A DNA stretch of 42,265 nt from Anaerolineae bacterium (GTDB lineage Bacteria > Chloroflexota > Anaerolineae > Anaerolineales > Villigracilaceae): positions 1-42,265 of the forward strand of contig JAKEFL010000231.1 in assembly GCA_022616105.1 (NCBI GenBank). The letters are read 5' to 3'. This document shows, one piece after another, positions 29,843-42,038 of this stretch (its first letter is position 1; each line of letters starts with the position of its first letter). The notes beneath the pieces were generated by a model that did not search any database, was not told the origin of the DNA, and worked only from the letters and a program-made list of their open reading frames with translations. Made by a program: the position numbers and the translations under genes.

Positions 29843-32800
29843 ATGATGAGTTCGATTGTTCGATCAAGTTTGAAATATCAATTCCTGGTGATTACGATTG
29901 CCGTCACGCTGATGGCATTCGGCCTCACCCAATTCCGCGGGATGCCGGTGGATGTCCTGCCGGAGTTCTCTCCGCCTTTTGTCGAGATCCAGACTGAGGC
30001 GCTGGGGCTTTCCGCGGAGGAAGTAGAGCAGATGATCACTGTTCCCATAGAGCAGGACCTGATGGCCGGCGTGGCATGGCTCGATGTCATCCGCTCCGAG
30101 TCCGTACCAGGTCTATCATCCGTGCTTATCTACTTCGAACCTGGGACCGATCTCTATCGTGCACGCCAGATGGTGACTGAGCGCCTTGCGCAGGCCGCAA
30201 TCGCCATCCCGCATGTATCCAAGCCGCCGACAATGATCCAGCCTCTGTCGTCACAGAGCCGGTTCATGATTGTCGGTCTCTCTTCGCAGGAACTGTCCCT
30301 GATCGAAATGTCCGTGCTTGCGCGTTGGACGATTGCCCCTCAGTTGATGGGCGTACCCGGCGTGGCACATGTGGCCATCTGGGGTAACCGCGATCGCCAG
30401 CTTCAAGTGTTGGTTGACCCTAAGCAACTTCATGAGCAGGGTGTTTCACTCGACCAGGTGGTCGCTACTACAGGAAATGCCCTCTGGGTCTCGTCCTTGA
30501 CCTATCTCGAGGCTTCATCGCCCGGCACCGGTGGCTTCATCGATACACCCAATCAACGGCTTAATGTCTGGCATGTTTTGCCAATTTCCTCCGCTGAGGA
30601 TCTTGCCAAAGTCCCCGTGGATGGTACAGAAGGGCTGCGCCTGGGGGATGTGGCTCAAGTGGTGGAAGATCATCAGTTGTTGATCGGGGATGCAGTCGTT
30701 AACGAAAACCCCAACCTTTTGTTGGTGATCGAAAAATTGCCTGGTATCAATACTCTGGAAGTGACACGCGCTGTGGAAGCTGAGCTGGCGGGCTTGCAGC
30801 CTGGTCTGCCTGGTGTCCAATTTGATGCCACGCTTTTCCGCCCGGCAACCTTTATCGAAATGGCAATCTCTAACCTCACCCGCACTCTGGTCGTTGCCGC
30901 GCTGCTTGTAGTTCTGGTACTGGGTATGTTCCTTTACGGATGGCGCGCTGCATTGATCAGCCTGGCAGCTATCGTGGTATCCCTGTTCGCTGCCCTTTTC
31001 GTGCTCTATATGCGGGGCGAAACTCTCAATTCAATGGTGATTGCAGGTCTGGCAGTGGCACTCGGTCTCGTGATTGATGATGCCATCATCGATGTTGAAC
31101 GTATTATACAGAGTCTGCGCCTAAACCGCCAGCAAGGTGGACTCAGATCAGCTCCCGCTGTGATCCTCGGAGCGATAGGCGAAACGCGCAGTGCGCTCTT
31201 CTTCGCTACCCTGATTACGCTGCTGGCGATCTTGCCGGTCTTCTTCATCCAGGGTGTTTCTGGTGCATTATTCCAGCCCATGGTTGTTTCTTATGCACTG
31301 GCTGTTCTGGCTGCCATGATTGTGGCAGTGACCGTTACACCGGCACTGAGTATGCTCCTCTTATCAAAGACAAACCTCTCACTCCGGGAATCAGCATTTG
31401 TTGCCCGGCTGCAGAGCGGTTATGACCGGAATTTGTCACGGACTGTTAAGAGTCCAGGGCTTGCCAACACTGCCATTGTAGTCCTCGTGGTGGCAGCGCT
31501 TGTTGCGCTTCCATTCCTGGTGGAAGAAAATACGGCACTTCCTACATTCAGAGAACCTTATCTCACGGTCCGGTTTGAAGCCGCGCCGGGCACATCCCAG
31601 CCTGAGATGAACCGTATCGTGTCCCGCGCCAACAACGAATTGCGTAGTATTTCCGGCGTGAGCAATGTCGGTGCCCATATCGGCCGCGCCGTGTTTGGGG
31701 ATCAGACAGGCAATGTCAATTCTGCGGAACTTTTCGTCAGCATCGATCCTAATGCAAACTATGATGCAACAGTAGCCGCAGTTCAAAATGTAATAAATGG
31801 ATATGCCGGAGTGGATCGCGAAGTGCGCACCTACGTGCAACAGACTCTCAGCCAGCCGCAGACCAGCACCGCATCTGATCTCACCGTGCGTGTATATGGT
31901 GAGGATCATGCTACCCTGCGCGCTGAGGCACAAAAGTTGCAGCAGGTTTTGGCCAAGGTAAATGGCGTGGCTGATCCGCGCGTAATCCTCACCGCGGATG
32001 AACCTTCCCTGGAGATCGAGGTCGATCTGGCTGCAGCGCAAAAATTTGGCGTCAAACCTGGCGATGTCCGCCGGACTGCTGCAATCCTTTTGTCCGGAAT
32101 TCAGGTCGGCAGCCTTTTCGAGGACCAGAAAGTATTCGATGTAGTCGTCTGGGGCGAGCCTCAGCTGCGTCAGAACGTCTCGAACATTCATGATCTGCTG
32201 ATCGATGTTCCAGGTATTGACACTGCTCCTGGCACACAAGTGCGTCTGGGAGACGTTGCCGAAGTGCGCATCGTGTCATCTCCAACTGTGATCCATCGCG
32301 AAGCTGTTTCGCCATACCTGGATATTGCCTTTGGTGTCGAAGGTCGAAATGCCAACGCTGTGGCCCAGAACGTGACTGCCGCCCTCCAGAATTACCCCTT
32401 CCCGCTCGAATATCACGCGGAAGTTGTAAATGATTACGGAGCCCGGCAGGCCGCTCAGCAAAGTATCATCATCGCCAGCCTTGTTGCCATTCTCGGGATT
32501 TTCCTGCTCCTGCAGGCTTCTTTCAGGAGCTGGAAACTGGCTGTGGCTGCGGTCATCACCCTGCCTGCAGCGTTGTCTGGTGCCATATTGGCAGACCTGT
32601 TGGGGAATGGTGGTGCAGTATCGCTCGGTTTGATGATGGGCTGCCTTGCAGTGGCAGGCATCGCGCTCCGCAACAGTATCATGCTGGTCAACCACTATCA
32701 GAATCTCGAAGAGCAACAGGGTGAGAACTTTGGTCCAGAATTGGTGATGCGCGGCTCACGAGAACGAATGTCGCCCATCCTGATGAACGCCCTGGCAACT

Positions 32801-33007
32801 GGTTTGGCCTTCCTGCCCTTTGTGCTCTTCGGCAATATACCCGGGCACGAGATTGTGCGCCCCATGGCTATCGTGATTATAGGCGGCCTGATTACTTCGA
32901 CCTGGTTCAACCTGTTCGCCATGCCTGCCTTGTACCTGCGCTTTGGCGCCAGCCGTGAAGCCGATCTTGGCTTCCAGCAAGTCACAGCCGTCGCAGCGGA
33001 CGATTAG
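29843..33007 (+). CDS. Efflux RND transporter permease subunit (RND-1)
   Basis: FRGMPVDVLPEFSPPFVEIQTEALGLSAEEVEQMITVPIEQ; GLVIDDAIIDVERI; PGHEIVRPMAIVIIGGLITST. Confidence 0.95.
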   Translation: MMSSIVRSSLKYQFLVITIAVTLMAFGLTQFRGMPVDVLPEFSPPFVEIQTEALGLSAEEVEQMITVPIEQDLMAGVAWLDVIRSESVPGLSSVLIYFEPGTDLYRARQMVTERLAQAAIAIPHVSKPPTMIQPLSSQSRFMIVGLSSQELSLIEMSVLARWTIAPQLMGVPGVAHVAIWGNRDRQLQVLVDPKQLHEQGVSLDQVVATTGNALWVSSLTYLEASSPGTGGFIDTPNQRLNVWHVLPISSAEDLAKVPVDGTEGLRLGDVAQVVEDHQLLIGDAVVNENPNLLLVIEKLPGINTLEVTRAVEAELAGLQPGLPGVQFDATLFRPATFIEMAISNLTRTLVVAALLVVLVLGMFLYGWRAALISLAAIVVSLFAALFVLYMRGETLNSMVIAGLAVALGLVIDDAIIDVERIIQSLRLNRQQGGLRSAPAVILGAIGETRSALFFATLITLLAILPVFFIQGVSGALFQPMVVSYALAVLAAMIVAVTVTPALSMLLLSKTNLSLRESAFVARLQSGYDRNLSRTVKSPGLANTAIVVLVVAALVALPFLVEENTALPTFREPYLTVRFEAAPGTSQPEMNRIVSRANNELRSISGVSNVGAHIGRAVFGDQTGNVNSAELFVSIDPNANYDATVAAVQNVINGYAGVDREVRTYVQQTLSQPQTSTASDLTVRVYGEDHATLRAEAQKLQQVLAKVNGVADPRVILTADEPSLEIEVDLAAAQKFGVKPGDVRRTAAILLSGIQVGSLFEDQKVFDVVVWGEPQLRQNVSNIHDLLIDVPGIDTAPGTQVRLGDVAEVRIVSSPTVIHREAVSPYLDIAFGVEGRNANAVAQNVTAALQNYPFPLEYHAEVVNDYGARQAAQQSIIIASLVAILGIFLLLQASFRSWKLAVAAVITLPAALSGAILADLLGNGGAVSLGLMMGCLAVAGIALRNSIMLVNHYQNLEEQQGENFGPELVMRGSRERMSPILMNALATGLAFLPFVLFGNIPGHEIVRPMAIVIIGGLITSTWFNLFAMPALYLRFGASREADLGFQQVTAVAADD

Positions 33008-33039
33008 TTAATACGGTTGAAATTAATAAAACGAAACAT

Positions 33040-34071
33040 GTGAGCAAAATGAATCCAAGAATAGATTCCAAGATAACAAGCCCTCAGCCTGAAGTTTTGG
33101 TGGCTGAGGGCCTCCAAAAGTCCTATGATAAGAGACATGCACTTCAAGGGTTGACATTAACCTTGAGGGAAGGGCGCATCCTGGGCTTCCTAGGTCCGAA
33201 CGGCGCCGGAAAAACGACCTCCATTCGCATCCTCACCACGATGATCACGCCCGACGCAGGCTCCTTCTCTGTGGATGGCATCAGTTCCGACCATCCTCAG
33301 GAGATTCGCCGCAGGATTGGCGTTCTGCCGGAAAACCTGGGATTCCCCAGGCAAATGACAGGGATGGAATACCTGACCTTTTTCGGCCAGCTCTACGGTA
33401 GAAGCGCGGCAAATGCCAGAGAAACTGCCAAGGCTCTCCTCGAGGATGTGGGCATGACCAACAGGGCAAAGTCCCTCATCGGCAGTTACAGCCATGGGAT
33501 GAAACAAAGAATTGGCATTGCACGTTCCCTGATCAATGACCCGGTGGTTGTTTTCCTGGACGAACCAACGTTGGGATTGGATCCTCGTGGCCAACAGGAA
33601 CTGTTGGAACTGATCCAGCGCATCGCTCGAGAGCGAGGAACCGGCATCATCCTATGCAGCCATCTTTTATCTGAGATCGAGAATGTTTGCGACGATGTGG
33701 TCATCCTGAACCAGGGTCAAATCGTTGCACGTGGGACAGTAGCTGATGTCATAGGCCGCACACAGCAAAATATTGTTCTGAAAAATTCCATGCGCATCCA
33801 AGTGCCGCCCGACTATGTTGCAAAGGCAAAACAGGCTTTGAAAGCCACCATGCCGAATGTCATCAAGGTGAACTCCATCAGCGAGACGGAAGGCTGGATA
33901 CGCGCGGAACTTGTGGACGCGGCAAATGGAAATTCCGATAAGACCTACCTGATCAATAATACCATTCTGAGTTCGCTTATTCGCGCCAAGATCCCGATCT
34001 TGAGTTTTGTGGTCGAAGGCGGCAAACTACAGGATGTATTCCTGCACCTGACCGAGGAGACGATCAGATGA
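33040..34071 (+). CDS. ABC transporter ATP-binding protein
   Basis: Walker A FLGPNGAGKTT; YSHGMKQRIGIARSL; VVFLDEPTLGLDP. GTG start. Confidence 0.95.
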   Translation: MSKMNPRIDSKITSPQPEVLVAEGLQKSYDKRHALQGLTLTLREGRILGFLGPNGAGKTTSIRILTTMITPDAGSFSVDGISSDHPQEIRRRIGVLPENLGFPRQMTGMEYLTFFGQLYGRSAANARETAKALLEDVGMTNRAKSLIGSYSHGMKQRIGIARSLINDPVVVFLDEPTLGLDPRGQQELLELIQRIARERGTGIILCSHLLSEIENVCDDVVILNQGQIVARGTVADVIGRTQQNIVLKNSMRIQVPPDYVAKAKQALKATMPNVIKVNSISETEGWIRAELVDAANGNSDKTYLINNTILSSLIRAKIPILSFVVEGGKLQDVFLHLTEETIR

Positions 34072-34913
34072 GCAATGTCACTGCCAGCCTGAATGATAAA
34101 CAAGCTAGCCAGCGCCGGGCAGAATCCTTTGGGCGCGGGGCGCCGGCCTGGTGGCTTATGTTCACAAGGGAACTCGCCGATCTCTGGATTGGCGGGAAAG
34201 CCCTGTACCTGATTCTCGCTTACAGCCTATTTCTTGGATTCCAGTCTTACGCCCAGGTAAAGACTAGTGAGACCAGCTTTATTCCCCCAAAGGAAATGGT
34301 ATTCGCCACATTGCAGGGTGTCATCTATATGAGCGGACTGATCGGGATGATTATCGGAGCAGATAGCATCAGTGGCGAACGAGAACGAGGCACTCTGGAG
34401 GCACTGCTGCTCACACCGGCGAGCCGAAGGCAGATGCTCCTCGGCAAATTCCTTGCTGGACTGTCTCCCTGGCCAATCGCCCTGCTTATTGCCATCCCCT
34501 TCTTCCTGATGCTGGCTCAGGGGGATCCGATTTTCGGTCAGGCCCTGTATTGGGGCAGCATCGTGGGAACCCTGCTTGCAATCGGCTTTACTGGCCTGGG
34601 AATGCTGGTCAGTTTCTGGTCGAACTCCAACCGGGTCAGTTTCTTTGTAAGTTTGGGAATTTATATCGTGCTCCTGCTCCCCTCTAGTTGGCCTGGCAGA
34701 ACCGTGAGAGGAACCGTGGCAAAGGTCTTCCAAAGATTGAACCCAATCGAAGGTCCGATTAATGAATTTCTGCCAAAAATTCTCGTAAACAATCGGCACT
34801 TTTCTGAGTACGCGCACTGGCTGTGGACGCCAGAAGTATTTGCCGGCGTGATAGTACTGCTGCTCTTCCTCTATGCAGGTGCCCGACTCAGCATAGAGGC
34901 GAGACAACGATAG
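34068..34913 (+). CDS. ABC-2 type permease (permease A)
   Basis: ADSISGERERGTLEALLLTPASRRQMLLGKFLAGLSPWP and multiple TM helices. Confidence 0.9.
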   Translation: MSNVTASLNDKQASQRRAESFGRGAPAWWLMFTRELADLWIGGKALYLILAYSLFLGFQSYAQVKTSETSFIPPKEMVFATLQGVIYMSGLIGMIIGADSISGERERGTLEALLLTPASRRQMLLGKFLAGLSPWPIALLIAIPFFLMLAQGDPIFGQALYWGSIVGTLLAIGFTGLGMLVSFWSNSNRVSFFVSLGIYIVLLLPSSWPGRTVRGTVAKVFQRLNPIEGPINEFLPKILVNNRHFSEYAHWLWTPEVFAGVIVLLLFLYAGARLSIEARQR

Positions 34914-34936
34914 TTATTTTTTTAGGAGAATTTCGA

Positions 34937-36358
34937 ATGAAAAGTATGACAATGCAGCAGGTCAGTAAAACTAAGATTGAACCCTGGCGGCCAGCGGTGC
35001 CTGCTTCGTGGGTTATGCTTACAAGCGAACTCACCGATCTCTGGGTGGGAGGCAAGGCACTATACCTTATTCTCGCCTATAGCATTATGCTCGGAATCCA
35101 AACCTTCGTCCTGGCAACCAATTTCGAACTGAGTTTGTTCACGCCGCAAGAAATGGTCTTCGAGATCCTAAAATCTTCCATTCAGGTAAGCCTGCTGATC
35201 GGATTGATCATTGGCTCCGATAGCATCAGCGGCGAACGCGAGCGGGCCACACTTGAAGGGTTGTTGCTTACACCCGCCAGTCGCAGGCAAATTGTCCTTG
35301 GCAAATTCCTCGCCTCACTCTCCCCTTGGCCCGCGGCTCTATGTATCTCTCTACCCTTCATATTCGTCCTCGCTCAAGGCGAAGTAGCCCTTGGTCCGGC
35401 GTTTCTTTGGAGCGCCCTCGTGGGCATTCTCCTGGTTCCCGCCTTTACCGCGCTGGGGATGATCGTGAGCTTCTGGTGTAACTCAAACAAGACCAGTTTC
35501 TTCATTAGCCTCGGAATCTTCCTGGTCGTCATCCTAATGGGACAGGTGATTGGAACCACCAGAGTAGGTGTGTTCGGTCAAATGCTTCTATTTATCAACC
35601 CTATCCCATCCGGCTTTGATTTCCTTTCGAAGATGCTGGTCGCTAACGGCACCTTTGCTGAATTCTGGATTTATCTGAAGGCGTCTTTTGTCTTTACTGC
35701 CGTGGTGATAGGATTTCTCTTCTATTACCTTAGCCCAAGACTCATGGTTGAGGAAGGAAGGATGAGCAGACTCTGGTCGAAGTTGAGCCGAAGGGTTGGT
35801 TTGGCGGTGATCGTCTGTCTTGTGCTAGCCCCGAGCGTGACTTCTGCTCAGGCTCTCTACCAATCTGAGGCAGGCGATTTGCAGATGTCTATCAGTATTC
35901 ATTCCATACAAGGGAAAACCGGCGACACAATCAATTTCGATACGGTCGTGACCAATACCAGCGCACAGCAATCCCCGCCAGTGATTGCAGCAATGAACAT
36001 CATCAATTTGAGCAAAACAGGAGACGTGGTCGATCCGGAAGATTGGTCGCCCCAACGAACCCAATACATCGATTCCCTGGGGCCCAATCAATCCACTACA
36101 CTTTCCTGGACTGTTAATGCTGTCTTGGATGGTGATTTCATGGTCTACGTTGTCGGAATTCCCCAACCTCAAACTGCGGAGGACTCCAGCCAGGTCGTTG
36201 CCAGTCCGGGCTTGCATTTATCGGTAGAAAAATTCACCAGTCTCAACCCCAGCGGCATCCTCCCGTTTGTGATTGGCGTACCAGTGGTCTTAGTGATTGC
36301 CATCTCCCTGTTGTTCCGGATGCGGCGCAGGCAGATTGACACGGGCGGTTCATCGTGA
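34937..36358 (+). CDS. ABC-2 type permease (permease B) fused to an extracellular beta-rich domain and C-terminal TM
   Basis: SDSISGERERATLEGLLLTPASRRQIVLGKFLASLSPWP, then GDTINFDTVVTNTS...LGPNQSTTLSWTVNAVLDGDFMVYVVG and final TM ILPFVIGVPVVLVIAISLLF. Confidence 0.9.
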   Translation: MKSMTMQQVSKTKIEPWRPAVPASWVMLTSELTDLWVGGKALYLILAYSIMLGIQTFVLATNFELSLFTPQEMVFEILKSSIQVSLLIGLIIGSDSISGERERATLEGLLLTPASRRQIVLGKFLASLSPWPAALCISLPFIFVLAQGEVALGPAFLWSALVGILLVPAFTALGMIVSFWCNSNKTSFFISLGIFLVVILMGQVIGTTRVGVFGQMLLFINPIPSGFDFLSKMLVANGTFAEFWIYLKASFVFTAVVIGFLFYYLSPRLMVEEGRMSRLWSKLSRRVGLAVIVCLVLAPSVTSAQALYQSEAGDLQMSISIHSIQGKTGDTINFDTVVTNTSAQQSPPVIAAMNIINLSKTGDVVDPEDWSPQRTQYIDSLGPNQSTTLSWTVNAVLDGDFMVYVVGIPQPQTAEDSSQVVASPGLHLSVEKFTSLNPSGILPFVIGVPVVLVIAISLLFRMRRRQIDTGGSS

Positions 36359-36399
36359 ACCACTCAAAACATTTTTCAAATTTATATTGGAGGTATCAA

Positions 36400-36816
36400 A
36401 TGAAACACATCAATCGCTGGCTAGTTATCGTCCTTGTCCTTGTCACTCTCGGACTTGCAGCCTGTGGCCCCAAAACGACAACGGTGGAAAAAATCGTTCC
36501 GTCGAAACTTGAGCCCATCGAAGGCACGGATCTCAGCCGTGTGATCCTCACCGAGAAGGCCGCCGAGCGAATCGGCATCGAAACCGTCCTGGCAAGCGGG
36601 AAGTCTGTTCCCTTTGCTGCGGTAATTTATGATATCGAAGGCAATACCTGGATCTATACCAACCCCGAACCTCTGACCTTCGTTCGAGAACCCATCGTGA
36701 TAGATCAGATCGAAGGTGATACAGCCATATTGGCTGAAGCCTTAAACTCTGAAATGAACGTTGTAACGGTTGGAGTGATCGAGTTGTATGGTACTGAGAC
36801 CGGAGTTTCCAAATAA
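36400..36816 (+). CDS. Lipoprotein resembling a reduced RND membrane-fusion protein
   Basis: Lipobox LGLAAC; VILTEKAAERIGIETV and VPFAAVIYDIEGNTWIYTNPEPLTFVREPIVIDQIEGDTAIL...VVTVGVIELYGTETG are adaptor-like. Confidence 0.75.
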   Translation: MKHINRWLVIVLVLVTLGLAACGPKTTTVEKIVPSKLEPIEGTDLSRVILTEKAAERIGIETVLASGKSVPFAAVIYDIEGNTWIYTNPEPLTFVREPIVIDQIEGDTAILAEALNSEMNVVTVGVIELYGTETGVSK

Positions 36817-36834
36817 CGCACCAGGAGGTGCACT

Positions 36835-39800
36835 ATGCGCTGGATTGTTCAAGCAAGCTTACGTTATCGCTACCTGGTGATGTTTCTCGCCGCAGTGCTG
36901 TTGGTCTTTGGCATTGCCCGGTTGAGGAACTCCGCGGTAGATGTCTTTCCTGAGTTCGCGCCGCCCAAGGTAGAGGTTCAGACACTCTCCATGGGGCTTT
37001 CCGCGACGGACGTGGAGGAGCTCGTCACAGTACCGATCGAGCAGGCGCTCAATGGGGTGCCCGGGCTGGACGTAATGCGCTCCAGGTCAGTAACCGACCT
37101 GTCTGATATCTTTCTGATCTTTAAGCCTGGCACCGATCTGATCTACGCGCGGCAGTTGGTTGCAGAGCGCCTCGCAGCGGTCTACCCAACACTGCCCACC
37201 TGGGCCGCCCCGCCGGTGATCATTCAACCTCTGTCATCGACCAGCCGGGCAATGAAGATCGGCATTTCCTCAGATATCTATGACGAAATGGATCTGTCGA
37301 TGATCGCTTATTGGAAGATCCGTGCCCGCCTGTTGGATGTGCCTGGCGTTGCCAATGTGCCGATCTACGGCGAGAAGATCAAGATGCCGCAGGTACAGGT
37401 GGATTTGAAAAAGATGCAGGAGCATAATGTCACGCTCGATGAAGTGATGGAAGTCACCTCAGATGCCCTGGATGTCAGCTTATTAATGTTCTCTGAAGGC
37501 TCATTCATTGGCACGGGCGGATTCATCGACACACCCAACCAGCGGCTTGGCATCCGCTCCGTTCTGCCCCTCATCACCCCTGAAAAATTGGGTGAGGTGC
37601 CCATCAATGATCGAACAAAGCCTGATGGCTCGCCTCTGCTCATTAAAGATGTGGCTAATGTCGTTTGGGGAACTTGGTCGCTCTTTGGGGATGCAGTCAT
37701 TAACGAAGGCCCCGGTTTAATGCTGATCGTTGAAAAGCTGCCGTGGGCAAACACCCTGCAAGTAACTCGCGGGGTGGAAGAGGCGATCGCCGAGATGCAG
37801 CCCGGACTGGATGGGATAAATATCGACACCACCATCTTCCGGCCGGCGACCTTCATCGAAACCTCGATCAATAATCTCACCCAATCACTTCTGATTGGCG
37901 CCGTTCTGGTCGTGATCATCCTGCTCTTCTTCCTATACGAATGGCGGGTTGCGCTGATCAGTGCTACGATCATCCCGTTATCACTCATGGCTTCCATGCT
38001 GGTGCTTAACCTGCAGGGTGTGGCGATCAATGTGATGACCCTGGCAGGCCTTGCGATTGCAATCGGCGCTGTGGTAGACGATGCCATCGTTGATGTCGAA
38101 AATATTGTGCGTCGTCTGCGCCGCCTCCGCCAGGAAGGCAGCACTCAGTCGACAGCCAGCATTGTGCTGGAGGCTTCCCTAGAAGTGCGTGGCTCGATTA
38201 TCTATGCTTCACTCATTGAGATCGCCGCCTTGATGCCGGTCTTTTTCCTGGATGGCTTGTCAGGCGCGTTCTTCCGGCCCCTGGCCACCGCTTATGTTGT
38301 GGCGGGCCTGGTCTCCCCGTTCGTTGCTCTGACGGTCACACCAGCCATGGTCTTGACCCTGCTGTCAAACGCACCCATAGACCATCGCCCATCCCCGATC
38401 ATTCCCTGGCTCCACAGTATCTATGACCGTGTACTGGGACGGGTTTTCCGTGCGCCCGCTCTGGCTTACGCTACTGCAGGCGTGATAGTGGTGGCCGGAC
38501 TGGCGGTAACGCCGTTTCTTGGGCAGGAATTATTGCCCTCGTTCAAGGAACGCGACTTCCTGATGCACTGGATTCTCAAGCCTGGCGCTTCCCACCCTGA
38601 AATGTGGCGCATCACCGCCGAGTCTTGCCGCGAATTATTGACGATCCCCGGCGTACGCAACTGCGGCTCACATATCGGTCAAGCCGTTAATGCCGATGAA
38701 CCCTACGGTGTCTACTTTACCGAAAACTGGATCAGTGTCGACCCTTCGGTTGACTATGACAAAACGCTGAACTCGGTTCAGGAGCTGGTGGATGGCTACC
38801 CTGGGCTGGTCCGCGATGTGCAGACCTATCTAAAAGAAAGAATCCGTGAGGTTCTCACGGGATCGAGCGATACGGTCGTGATCCGTATTTATGGTCAGGA
38901 CTTACATGCCCTCGGTGAGAAGGCAGATGAAGTTCGGGCTGCGTTGGAAGGCATTCCTGGAATCGTGGATCTAAAAAAGGAACTCCACATGGAGACGCCT
39001 CAGATAGAAGTCGAGGTGGATCTGGCAAAGGCTGAGCAATACGGCCTGAAACCGGGCGATGTCCGCCGTGCAGCAGCTTTCCTGTTACAGGGCGAAGAAG
39101 TCGGAGATATTTTCCTCAATGGGAAGACCTACGATGTAAATGTGTGGAGCACGCCCGAAACGCGCCACAGCCTGAACGATATTGAAAATCTCCTGATCGA
39201 TACACCCAGCGGTGAACGTGTGCGCCTGGCGGATGTAGCAGACGTACGCATTGGGGCAGTTCCGAATGTGATCGAACGTGAGGGCCAGTCGCGCAAAATT
39301 GACGTTTCAGCGAATGTAAAGGGACGCGATCTCGGTTCTGTAGCGGATGATGTCGAAGATACCCTAGCTAAGATCGAGTTCCCACTGGGCTTCCATGCAG
39401 AGGTGCTCGGCGAGTTTGCAGAACGGGAAAAGGCGCAACAGAACTTACTCCTCGCCGGGTCTATCGCTGTCATCGCCATATTCTTCCTGCTGTATACATC
39501 CTTCGGGAACTGGCGCCTGGCTACACTTACTTTCTTCACCCTGCCCTGGGCGCTGGTAGGCGGCTTGCTGGCAGCATATTTTAGCAGTGGCGTACTCTCC
39601 CTTGGCTCACTGGTTGGGCTGCTCACGATCCTGGGCATTGCCACCCGCAACGGCATCATGATGGTCAGTCACTTCCAGCATCTGGAGCAGGAGGAAGGTA
39701 TGACCTTTGGTCCGGAGTTGGTCATGCGCGGCGCGAAAGAACGCATCGCACCCATCATGATGACGGCATTGACGACTGGCCTGGCGCTTATCCCTCTGGC

Positions 39801-39987
39801 GATTGCCGGCGACTTGCCTGGTCATGAGATCGAGCATCCAATGGCACTCGTCATCCTGGGTGGACTGGTCACTTCGACCCTGCTCAACCTGCTAGTGGTA
39901 CCCACCTTGTATCTGCGCTTTGGTAAAGCTCCTGAGCGTGCAGGCAGATCAATCGCAGTTTCGCCTGAGCCAGCCGGAACCGATTAG
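36835..39987 (+). CDS. Efflux RND transporter permease subunit (RND-2)
   Basis: RNSAVDVFPEFAPPKVEVQTLSMGLSATDVEELVTVPIEQ; GAVVDDAIVDVENI; GIATRNGIMMVSHFQHLE. Confidence 0.95.
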   Translation: MRWIVQASLRYRYLVMFLAAVLLVFGIARLRNSAVDVFPEFAPPKVEVQTLSMGLSATDVEELVTVPIEQALNGVPGLDVMRSRSVTDLSDIFLIFKPGTDLIYARQLVAERLAAVYPTLPTWAAPPVIIQPLSSTSRAMKIGISSDIYDEMDLSMIAYWKIRARLLDVPGVANVPIYGEKIKMPQVQVDLKKMQEHNVTLDEVMEVTSDALDVSLLMFSEGSFIGTGGFIDTPNQRLGIRSVLPLITPEKLGEVPINDRTKPDGSPLLIKDVANVVWGTWSLFGDAVINEGPGLMLIVEKLPWANTLQVTRGVEEAIAEMQPGLDGINIDTTIFRPATFIETSINNLTQSLLIGAVLVVIILLFFLYEWRVALISATIIPLSLMASMLVLNLQGVAINVMTLAGLAIAIGAVVDDAIVDVENIVRRLRRLRQEGSTQSTASIVLEASLEVRGSIIYASLIEIAALMPVFFLDGLSGAFFRPLATAYVVAGLVSPFVALTVTPAMVLTLLSNAPIDHRPSPIIPWLHSIYDRVLGRVFRAPALAYATAGVIVVAGLAVTPFLGQELLPSFKERDFLMHWILKPGASHPEMWRITAESCRELLTIPGVRNCGSHIGQAVNADEPYGVYFTENWISVDPSVDYDKTLNSVQELVDGYPGLVRDVQTYLKERIREVLTGSSDTVVIRIYGQDLHALGEKADEVRAALEGIPGIVDLKKELHMETPQIEVEVDLAKAEQYGLKPGDVRRAAAFLLQGEEVGDIFLNGKTYDVNVWSTPETRHSLNDIENLLIDTPSGERVRLADVADVRIGAVPNVIEREGQSRKIDVSANVKGRDLGSVADDVEDTLAKIEFPLGFHAEVLGEFAEREKAQQNLLLAGSIAVIAIFFLLYTSFGNWRLATLTFFTLPWALVGGLLAAYFSSGVLSLGSLVGLLTILGIATRNGIMMVSHFQHLEQEEGMTFGPELVMRGAKERIAPIMMTALTTGLALIPLAIAGDLPGHEIEHPMALVILGGLVTSTLLNLLVVPTLYLRFGKAPERAGRSIAVSPEPAGTD

Positions 39988-40019
39988 ATACAAAATCACT
40001 GTTAATCTCTTATTTTAGG

Positions 40020-40059
40020 TCGACACACGATATGGTATTATTGCCATATCGTGTGTCGA
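40020..40059. promoter_or_regulatory. 16-bp-stem inverted repeat just upstream of the lipoprotein gene
   Basis: tcgacacacgatatgg-tattattg-ccatatcgtgtgtcga; no T-tract follows. Confidence 0.7.
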
Positions 40060-40072
40060 GAATCGAGGCAAA

Positions 40073-40918
40073 ATGCAACGTTCTCACCTCTTATTTGTAG
40101 CAGTGGCTCTCCTCATCACAATTATTGTTTCAGCATGTGCGCCAAGTGCACCTGATGATCCGGTTTTCGATAGCTTCGATCCCAATAATTTCGACAATTC
40201 GACCAACATAGATAATGAATGGATGCCCTTGAAACCTGGCACGCAGTTGGTTTTTGAAGGGGAAACCATTGAGAATGGCGAATCAGTTCCGCATCGAGTG
40301 GTGATTAATGTTACGGATTTAACCAAGGTAATCAGCGGGGTCCGCTCAGTCGTCACCTGGGACTTGGACTATAGCGGAGACGAATTAGTGGAGGCAGAAC
40401 TTGCCTTCTTCGCCCAGGATAATGACGGGAATGTCTGGCGTATGGGTGAGTATCCTGAAGAATATCAGGATGGCAAATTCATTGATAATCCAACCTGGAT
40501 TCATGGCTTGGATAATGCGCTCGCGGGCATTGCAATGCAAGCCAACCCACAACCCGGCACACCGGATTATCCTCAAGGGTGGGGTCCCGAGGTAGATTGG
40601 ACCGACCGCGGCTTGGTGGATAAGATCGTTCAGGAAACTTGTGTCCCAGCCGGCTGTTATCAGAATGTTTTGGTCATCAAAGAAACCAGTGCAACTGAAG
40701 TTGGAGCGTTTCAGCTCAAGTATTTTGCGCCTGGCGTGGGTAATGTTTTAGTGGACTGGACTGGCACAGACAAAACGCAAGAGACTCTGGAACTGGTTGA
40801 ATACAATCAACTCAGCCCCGAAGAGATGGACGAGGTCCGCGCCTCGGCGTTGGAACTGGAAAAGAGCGCCTATGAAAGAAGCAAAGATGTATACAGCCAG
40901 ACACCGCCGTTGGAATAA
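40073..40918 (+). CDS. Predicted secreted lipoprotein
   Basis: Signal peptide with lipobox VSAC; NIDNEWMPLKPGTQLVFEGETIENGESVPHRVV. Confidence 0.8.
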   Translation: MQRSHLLFVAVALLITIIVSACAPSAPDDPVFDSFDPNNFDNSTNIDNEWMPLKPGTQLVFEGETIENGESVPHRVVINVTDLTKVISGVRSVVTWDLDYSGDELVEAELAFFAQDNDGNVWRMGEYPEEYQDGKFIDNPTWIHGLDNALAGIAMQANPQPGTPDYPQGWGPEVDWTDRGLVDKIVQETCVPAGCYQNVLVIKETSATEVGAFQLKYFAPGVGNVLVDWTGTDKTQETLELVEYNQLSPEEMDEVRASALELEKSAYERSKDVYSQTPPLE

Positions 40919-41005: not shown

Positions 41006-41052
41006 AACTTCCCCAATCATGGTAGTAATGCCATGATTGGGGAAGTTACTTT
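41006..41052 (+). terminator. Long-stem terminator
   Basis: aacttccccaatcatgg-tagtaatg-ccatgattggggaagtt followed by actttttaaaa. Confidence 0.85.
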
Positions 41053-41348: not shown

Positions 41349-42038
41349 CTACTTCTCAAATATGTATCCAACACCGTGGAGCGTTAGGATATAACGCGGG
41401 CTTCTGGTATCTTCACCAAGTTTTCTTCGGAGATGTGAGATATATACATGAACATAGTCCATGCTTCCACGATATTCATTTCCCCAAACATTACTAAGGA
41501 TCTGTTCGAAAGTTAAGACCTTACCTGCGTTACGCGCAAGATAAGTCAACAACCGGAACTCAACAGGGGTTAATTTTATCCTTTTGCCATGTAACAAGAC
41601 ATCGCGTCTTTCAACGTCAATGGTCAGGTCACCGTTGTTGTAATTAAAAGGGTCACTCTGGGATTTAAGATTTTCACTGCGACGCAGGACTGTTTTGGCT
41701 CGGGCAAGCAGAACCTCTGCATTGAAAGGTTTTGATAGGAAATCATCCGCGCCGGCATCCAACCCGCGTAACATTTCCTGTTCATGGTTCAAGGCTGTTA
41801 GCATGATAAGCGGAGTATCCGAAACCTGTCTAATTCTTTGACAGACCTCGAACCCGTTCATCCCTGGCATCATTACATCTAAAATGATCAGATCAGGATG
41901 ATAGGTAAAGAGTTTACTAACACCTTCCATGCCATCACGAGCTGTCATAACTTGAGCTCCTTCCTTTTTAAAAATGACGGAAGCCAGTTGAAGGAGATCA
42001 GCGTCATCATCTATGAGAAGCACTTTTGAGTTAATCAT
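41349..42038 (-). CDS. OmpR/PhoB-family response regulator
   Basis: LLIDDDADLL, DLIILDVMMPGMNGFEVCQ, FLSKPFNAEVLLAR; winged-helix RDVLLHGKRIKLTPVEFRLLTYLARNAGKVLTFEQIL...LGEDTRSPRYILTLHGVGYIF. Confidence 0.95.
   Translation of the reverse strand: MINSKVLLIDDDADLLQLASVIFKKEGAQVMTARDGMEGVSKLFTYHPDLIILDVMMPGMNGFEVCQRIRQVSDTPLIMLTALNHEQEMLRGLDAGADDFLSKPFNAEVLLARAKTVLRRSENLKSQSDPFNYNNGDLTIDVERRDVLLHGKRIKLTPVEFRLLTYLARNAGKVLTFEQILSNVWGNEYRGSMDYVHVYISHLRRKLGEDTRSPRYILTLHGVGYIFEK

Follow-up and report, generated by a model that had tools for sequence, protein, structure and literature searches.

Pumps of the resistance-nodulation-division (RND) superfamily have been described in which two different RND subunits work together; MdtBC is regarded as unusual for this reason, and its duplication is placed in Proteobacteria. 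RND exporters without a TolC-type outer-membrane factor (OMF) are also known, as in the case of MmpL/MmpS and SwrC (YerP). For MdtB2C, division of labour between motor and substrate subunits was documented (PMC4338810). In a survey from which Actinobacteria and Chloroflexi were left out, tandem RND genes were found only in HAE-1 clade B (PMC10872679). YerP is noted in PMC8277102. BesA of Borrelia is an RND adaptor without α-hairpin, and such reduction was expected by the same review in Gram-positive organisms, where it had not been seen until then (PMC4446572). Here we describe a gene cluster on a DNA stretch of 42,265 nt, referred to as the window, from Anaerolineae bacterium (assembly GCA_022616105.1, 88% complete; contig JAKEFL010000231.1). 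The cluster includes two RND permease genes, RND1 and RND2, and a gene for a small lipoprotein, the mini-adaptor. Comparison of the predicted proteins indicates that these genes represent a second, independent and widespread paired-RND lineage, with an adaptor of the membrane-proximal domain (MPD) only and no linked outer-membrane channel, and that some Chloroflexota added an ABC-2 (ATP-binding cassette) exporter to this cassette. No description of a paired-RND/mini-adaptor system outside MdtBC was found in the open-licence literature searched.

RND1 (29843 to 33007, + strand) and RND2 (36835 to 39987, + strand) both matched PF00873 end to end, with 634 and 730 bits, respectively (cut-off 28), and both belong to the RND superfamily (ACR_tran). 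The assembly encodes no other full-length RND permease, a third PF00873 match being weak and partial. A maximum-likelihood tree was constructed for 67 RND1/RND2 pairs together with CusA, AcrB, MdtB, MdtC and the RND proteins of plasmid tripartite systems. All the upstream copies (RND1) formed one clade with support of 1.0, and all the downstream copies (RND2) formed one clade with support of 0.991. The two clades were sisters (support 1.0), apart from CusA, AcrB, MdtB, MdtC and the tripartite relatives, indicating that RND1 and RND2 originated from one ancient duplication. The identity between RND1 and RND2 is about 46% on average, and RND1 evolves faster than RND2. The correlation of 0.82 between the distance matrices of RND1 and RND2 represents common inheritance, not contact. 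The nearest outgroups were canonical operons of Sphingomonas, Hymenobacter and Methylomonas, each carrying one RND gene, a larger adaptor gene, a TolC-family gene and a response regulator gene. Since the nearest outgroups are of this tripartite type, the cassette would most simply have arisen from a tripartite system in which the RND gene was duplicated, the adaptor was reduced and the gene of the outer-membrane partner was lost. The placement of two single-RND relatives (G738 and G513) before or after the duplication had tree support of 0.

By scanning named genomes with the RND2 alignment, 80 loci were obtained. The mini-adaptor gene was located between the two RND genes in 70 of the 71 named loci that carry both. 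The sole two-RND locus without a detected adaptor (L095:1-4089) consists of an RND1 fragment and RND2 on a short contig, separated by 7 bases. The core cassette is RND1–mini-adaptor–RND2, often closed by a LolA/YmcC-like lipoprotein, Lip281. As judged from the record titles, the cassette is distributed in about a dozen phyla. The hosts include Chloroflexota, Actinomycetota (Arthrobacter, Catellatospora, Nonomuraea and Kribbella), Bradyrhizobium, gammaproteobacteria and Geobacter, and furthermore Bacteroidota, NC10, Rokubacteria, Nitrospirota, Gemmatimonadota, Planctomycetota, Chlamydiota, KSB1 and Trueperaceae. Several of these records are metagenome-assembled genomes (MAGs) and may be misnamed; isolates are included among those of Bradyrhizobium and Arthrobacter. 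By an RND1 search of 400 genomes, the RND pair was detected in only a handful, no match was found in 15 other listed genomes of the same genus, and the adaptor was present in 10 of 400 genomes of the phylum Chloroflexota. On the basis of these searches, the cassette is an accessory and patchily distributed unit. The proposal from a sequence-only reading of the window that the two RND proteins belong together was supported.

The two paralogues differ in the proton relay, which was compared at the positions D407, D408, K940, R971 and T978 of AcrB numbering. The RND2 relay, D-D-R-R-T, was invariant in 67 of 67 proteins (31 of 31 in the non-redundant set). For RND1, D407 was kept in 36 and R971 in 52 of the 67 proteins, and the relay of intact type (DD, R/K, R, T/S) was found in only 24. 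RND1 of the window is mildly changed in its relay (D412, D413, R943, R975 and N982), the counterpart of N982 being T in RND2. Conservation of each domain was then expressed as RND1 minus RND2 for the 31 non-redundant pairs. Marked decrease in RND1 was observed for the relay transmembrane (TM) segments TM4/10/11 (mean difference −0.28) and for PC1 (−0.23). Conservation was equal for PN1 (+0.02) and DC (−0.01), and the DN funnel was rather better conserved in RND1 (+0.11; 0.73 versus 0.62–0.64). The relay segments differed significantly from DN (p = 2e-16) and from the other TM segments (p = 3e-6). If RND1 were a decaying, non-functional duplicate kept by hitch-hiking, its faster evolution and the loss of relay residues would be expected; this is very improbable in view of the reading frames kept open across phyla, the maintained gene order, and the conservation of the DN funnel above, and of PN1 equal to, that of RND2. 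The asymmetry suggests that RND1 is a partner subunit, which must fit the trimer and the docking face and need not drive transport, and thus points to a heteromeric pump with RND2 as the motor. The MdtBC-like heteromer, which had been raised in the sequence-only reading, gains strong evolutionary support from the pairing, the single duplication and the relay asymmetry.

The mini-adaptor (36400 to 36816, + strand) is a lipoprotein of 138 residues. Its start was refined to the ATG at 36400, behind a GGAGGT-like ribosome site, instead of 36355. No match was obtained by a single-query sequence search of PDB, and profile and fold searches were needed. The AF2 model (pLDDT 91.3) gave as the best Foldseek match CusB in the CusBA complex (E 2.1e-3, probability 1.0), and further matches over the MPD included AcrA, MexA, ZneB and BesA. 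A profile of 30 mini-adaptors matched both ends of tripartite adaptors with the middle absent (E about 1e-31 to 1e-33 overall). Among the domains of the membrane fusion protein (MFP) family, the MPD is present, and the β-barrel, lipoyl and α-hairpin domains are absent. Both the model and the profile support the view that this protein is indeed a mini-adaptor, consisting of only the MPD of an RND adaptor without hairpin and lipoyl domain. Longer relatives (248–289 aa) occur in some loci; these have a barrel-like middle and lack the hairpin. An assembly or frame artefact was rejected, because the class of about 142–180 aa is present in most of 76 loci and the model is confident. An LptM-like protein was also rejected, the match being limited to 23 residues of signal peptide and below the cut-off. 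In a Chlamydiae MAG (L064:3707-11063), the order is adaptor-RND-adaptor-RND, with two different mini-adaptors.

With respect to the outer-membrane partner, no OMF (PF02321, TolC-family) was detected within 10 kb on either side of any cassette locus, using an HMM verified on an independent OMF. PF02321 was absent in five of six cassette genomes, and the matches in the remaining one (G300) were on other contigs. As far as the annotation of open reading frames shows, the window includes neither an OMF nor a full adaptor, as had been noted from the sequence. Elsewhere in the genome, full-size adaptor-type proteins (TIGR01730) are present, and no PF02321 match was found in the window assembly. The absence of OMF is provisional, because MAGs make up most of the genomes and the completeness of the window assembly is 88%; an unlinked OMF may be present in G300 and in diderm hosts. 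The combination of mini-adaptor and no nearby OMF was also found in diderms such as Bradyrhizobium and Bacteroidota. The presence of this reduced adaptor in diderms as well means that monoderm adaptation alone does not account for the design, and the earlier idea of adaptation to an envelope without a typical outer membrane is not supported as stated.

The best NCBIfam model for both RND proteins was TIGR00914 (469.5 bits for RND1 and 578.7 bits for RND2). Together with the resemblance of the adaptor to CusB, and with the response regulator of the closest tripartite relatives, beside which a sensor kinase is annotated in two of the three, this raises the question of an ordinary heavy-metal efflux (HME) system of CusA/CzcA type that lost its outer-membrane parts. 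Both scores are, however, below the model cut-off of 701.45. At the positions of CusA M573/M623/M672, RND2 has invariant H/F/E and RND1 is variable without Met consensus, and the TM10 residue is R, as in HAE-like relays (K), whereas CusA has E. Such an origin is therefore improbable. A CusA-like copper/silver site, and that site type only, was ruled out by the alignment because the CusA-type methionines are absent.

In the window, the genes of an ABC-2 exporter are inserted between RND1 and the mini-adaptor gene. These encode a DrrA/GldA-like ABC ATPase (33040 to 34071; PF00005) with intact Walker A, signature, Walker B and H-loop, and two ABC-2 permeases, PermA (34068 to 34913; PF12679) and PermB (34937 to 36358), the latter carrying a C-terminal extracytoplasmic domain and a final TM segment. 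For PermB, the ATG at 34937 is the more likely start. The intact-motif ATPase and the ABC-2 permease identify a DrrAB-like ABC-2 exporter, with the score below the drrA subfamily cut-off (251 versus 312). PermA is 51% identical to the N-terminal part of PermB, and is an extra copy in the window that was not found in linked relatives; the ATPase orthologues in other linked loci are 56–71% identical. The last gene encodes Lip281 (40073 to 40918). All seven genes are on the + strand in tight succession, and the family assignments of the sequence-only reading were confirmed for both RND proteins (PF00873), the ATPase (PF00005) and both permeases (ABC2_membrane families). The spacing is 32 nt between RND1 and the ATPase gene, a 4-nt overlap between the ATPase gene and PermA, about 23 nt between PermA and PermB, 41 nt between PermB and the adaptor gene, 18 nt between the adaptor gene and RND2, and 85 nt between RND2 and Lip281. 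No strong internal terminator was found within the cluster, and a bidirectional terminator-like hairpin of 19 pairs (41006 to 41047) follows the last gene. From this operon-like spacing and the strong terminator at the end, the seven genes are predicted to form one operon. The arrangement is far beyond chance because it recurs in other genomes.

Lip281 was detected in 50 of the examined loci, in most cases as the gene that directly follows RND2. Its model (pLDDT 91) has a β-barrel-like domain, and matched YmcC-like lipoproteins with an E-value of 3.5e-6; the matches to RseB and LolA-type folds were weaker. These matches suggest that the protein probably handles an amphiphilic substrate. Some relatives (L033:3319-5103 and L029:3459-5021) carry a tandem second Lip domain or a C-terminal extension; the window copy has neither. 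The tandem domain was found in G175, and the extension of about 200 residues in G300, G328, G243, G003 and G329. An OmpR-type response regulator (41349 to 42038, − strand; PF00072 and PF00486) is a candidate regulator of the cluster. It is 66–71% identical to the regulators of which the genes immediately precede the cassette in G300 and G329, and is relocated downstream in the window.

The seven-gene composite was rejected as a conserved unit. The ABC genes are inside the cassette in only 3 of the 71 named loci and in the window, and absent from most loci; what is conserved is the RND1–mini-adaptor–RND2 core, with the ABC part optional. The order RND1–[ABC ATPase–PermB]–adaptor–RND2–Lip281 was found in G300, G328 and G243, and the identical order without ABC genes in G003 and G175. 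ABC-PermB itself is rare, as the PermB search matched 3 of 251 genomes of the order (window, G243 and G198) and 4 of 400 genomes of the phylum set (window, G474, G738 and G513). In four of the five genomes other than the window, the ABC genes form part of an RND/lipoprotein cassette or directly adjoin one, and three gene orders are seen. They are inside the cassette in G243, the order is RND1-adaptor-RND2-ABC-PermB in G474, and one RND gene, Lip281, ABC and PermB stand in a row in G738 and G513. The single-RND loci with Lip281, ABC and PermB (L140:3455-10132 and L141:2-5100) carry neither adaptor nor RND1. Additional linked cases, G300 and G328 (ABC inside) and L051 (ABC about 8 kb away), were found through the RND search. 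In the neighbourhoods compared, the RND/adaptor cassette recurs and ABC genes are recurrently linked to it, and the ABC genes are inside the cassette in only four known genomes.

The cooperation of ABC and RND parts, as proposed from the sequence, gains genomic support from this linkage, and its main rival is an efflux island, in which the ABC-2 exporter and the RND cassette would be independent pumps with a common operon or regulator and a common toxic stimulus, and no substrate would be handed over. A different ABC module was found at most 10 kb away from the cassette in 17 loci of several phyla (L030, L050, L051, L056, L058, L061, L081, L083, L092, L096, L097, L098, L104, L107, L112, L116 and L123). 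It includes a 330-aa protein of no assigned family, a peptidoglycan-binding MFP-like protein and, in 16 of the 17, MacB. This module, the frequent presence of response regulators adjacent to the cassette, and the small number of cassettes with ABC inside agree with an island. On the other hand, ABC-PermB is mostly cassette-linked in spite of its rarity, and in the window it sits within the operon between subunit genes. Taken together, the independent island has a chance only a little short of even.

We propose, with moderate confidence from these comparisons, that the operon encodes a heteromeric RND exporter separate from the MdtBC lineage. RND2 would be the proton-driven motor protomer, and RND1 the diverged sister protomer that completes the trimer, with proton coupling partly given up. 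The lipid-anchored mini-adaptor may bind to the RND porter region and stabilise it; being reduced to the MPD, it should be unable to reach an outer-membrane channel. The substrate would then be released just outside the cytoplasmic membrane, into the cell-wall space or periplasm. Lip281, of which the barrel-like fold is related to that of lipid-handling proteins, is probably the protein that captures an amphiphilic substrate. The ABC-2 exporter, built into the operon in this Chloroflexota lineage, probably feeds the same kind of substrate, which would come from the cytoplasm or the inner leaflet, to the RND pump.

Several observations weigh against this proposal, in addition to the provisional nature of the OMF absence. 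About a third of RND1 proteins keep the full relay, the Foldseek E-values for the mini-adaptor are modest, and two homotrimers from one operon would equally conserve the gene order. The single-RND relatives with Lip281 and ABC-PermB (G738 and G513) imply that RND2-type proteins can work alone. ABC-PermB of G198 is present without an RND cassette and adjoins another MacB-like cluster, and the second ABC module is explained equally well by a general export island and by cooperation. Some of these points, together with the full length of both proteins, would agree with RND1 and RND2 being separate homotrimeric pumps that share one mini-adaptor. This is unlikely, as nearly all two-RND loci have kept the two paralogues on either side of one adaptor gene, and degeneration of the RND1 relay in many lineages has not extended to the funnel and PN1. 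The widest form of the heteromer proposal is a separate class of heteromeric RND exporters, with motor RND2, proton-uncoupled RND1 and MPD-only lipoprotein adaptor, which would be spread over at least a dozen phyla, export to the cell-wall space or periplasm with no outer-membrane channel, and form in some Chloroflexota one two-stage machine with the ABC-2 exporter; as a whole it is put forward tentatively. The recurrent ABC-RND pairing offers a test case for two-stage export, and the cassette allows one to ask what an RND subunit contributes without a proton relay.

Among the known systems, MdtABC/MuxABC (HAE-1 clade B) are alike in having two RND paralogues in one operon from one ancient duplication, MdtB and MdtC being about 50% identical. 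They differ from the cassette, of which the RND proteins fall outside the MdtB/MdtC clade and AcrB (support 1.0), the MPD-only adaptor gene lies between the RND genes, no OMF is linked, and the hosts include both monoderm and diderm phyla, a far wider phylum range than that of MdtBC. The plasmid tripartite operons of Sphingomonas, Hymenobacter and Methylomonas include the nearest RND proteins (about 49–53% identical to RND2), adaptors with ends homologous to the mini-adaptor and a nearby response regulator, but carry a single RND, a larger adaptor and a TolC-family gene. CusCFBA/CzcCBA (HME-RND) share TIGR00914 as the closest curated model and a CusB-like adaptor MPD; the cassette differs by scores below the cut-off, absence of CusA-type methionines, no linked OMF and two RND proteins. 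MmpL/MmpS and SwrC, which also export without a TolC-type OMF, belong to other RND subfamilies and are not known to have a paired RND with MPD-only MFP. BesA shares the lack of α-hairpin, but has an outer-membrane partner, BesC, and only its hairpin is reported missing, whereas the mini-adaptor also lacks the lipoyl and barrel domains. The mini-adaptor matches the hairpin-less reduction that was expected for Gram-positives (PMC4446572), and provides a natural minimal system for the role of the adaptor MPD beyond bridging to an outer-membrane channel.

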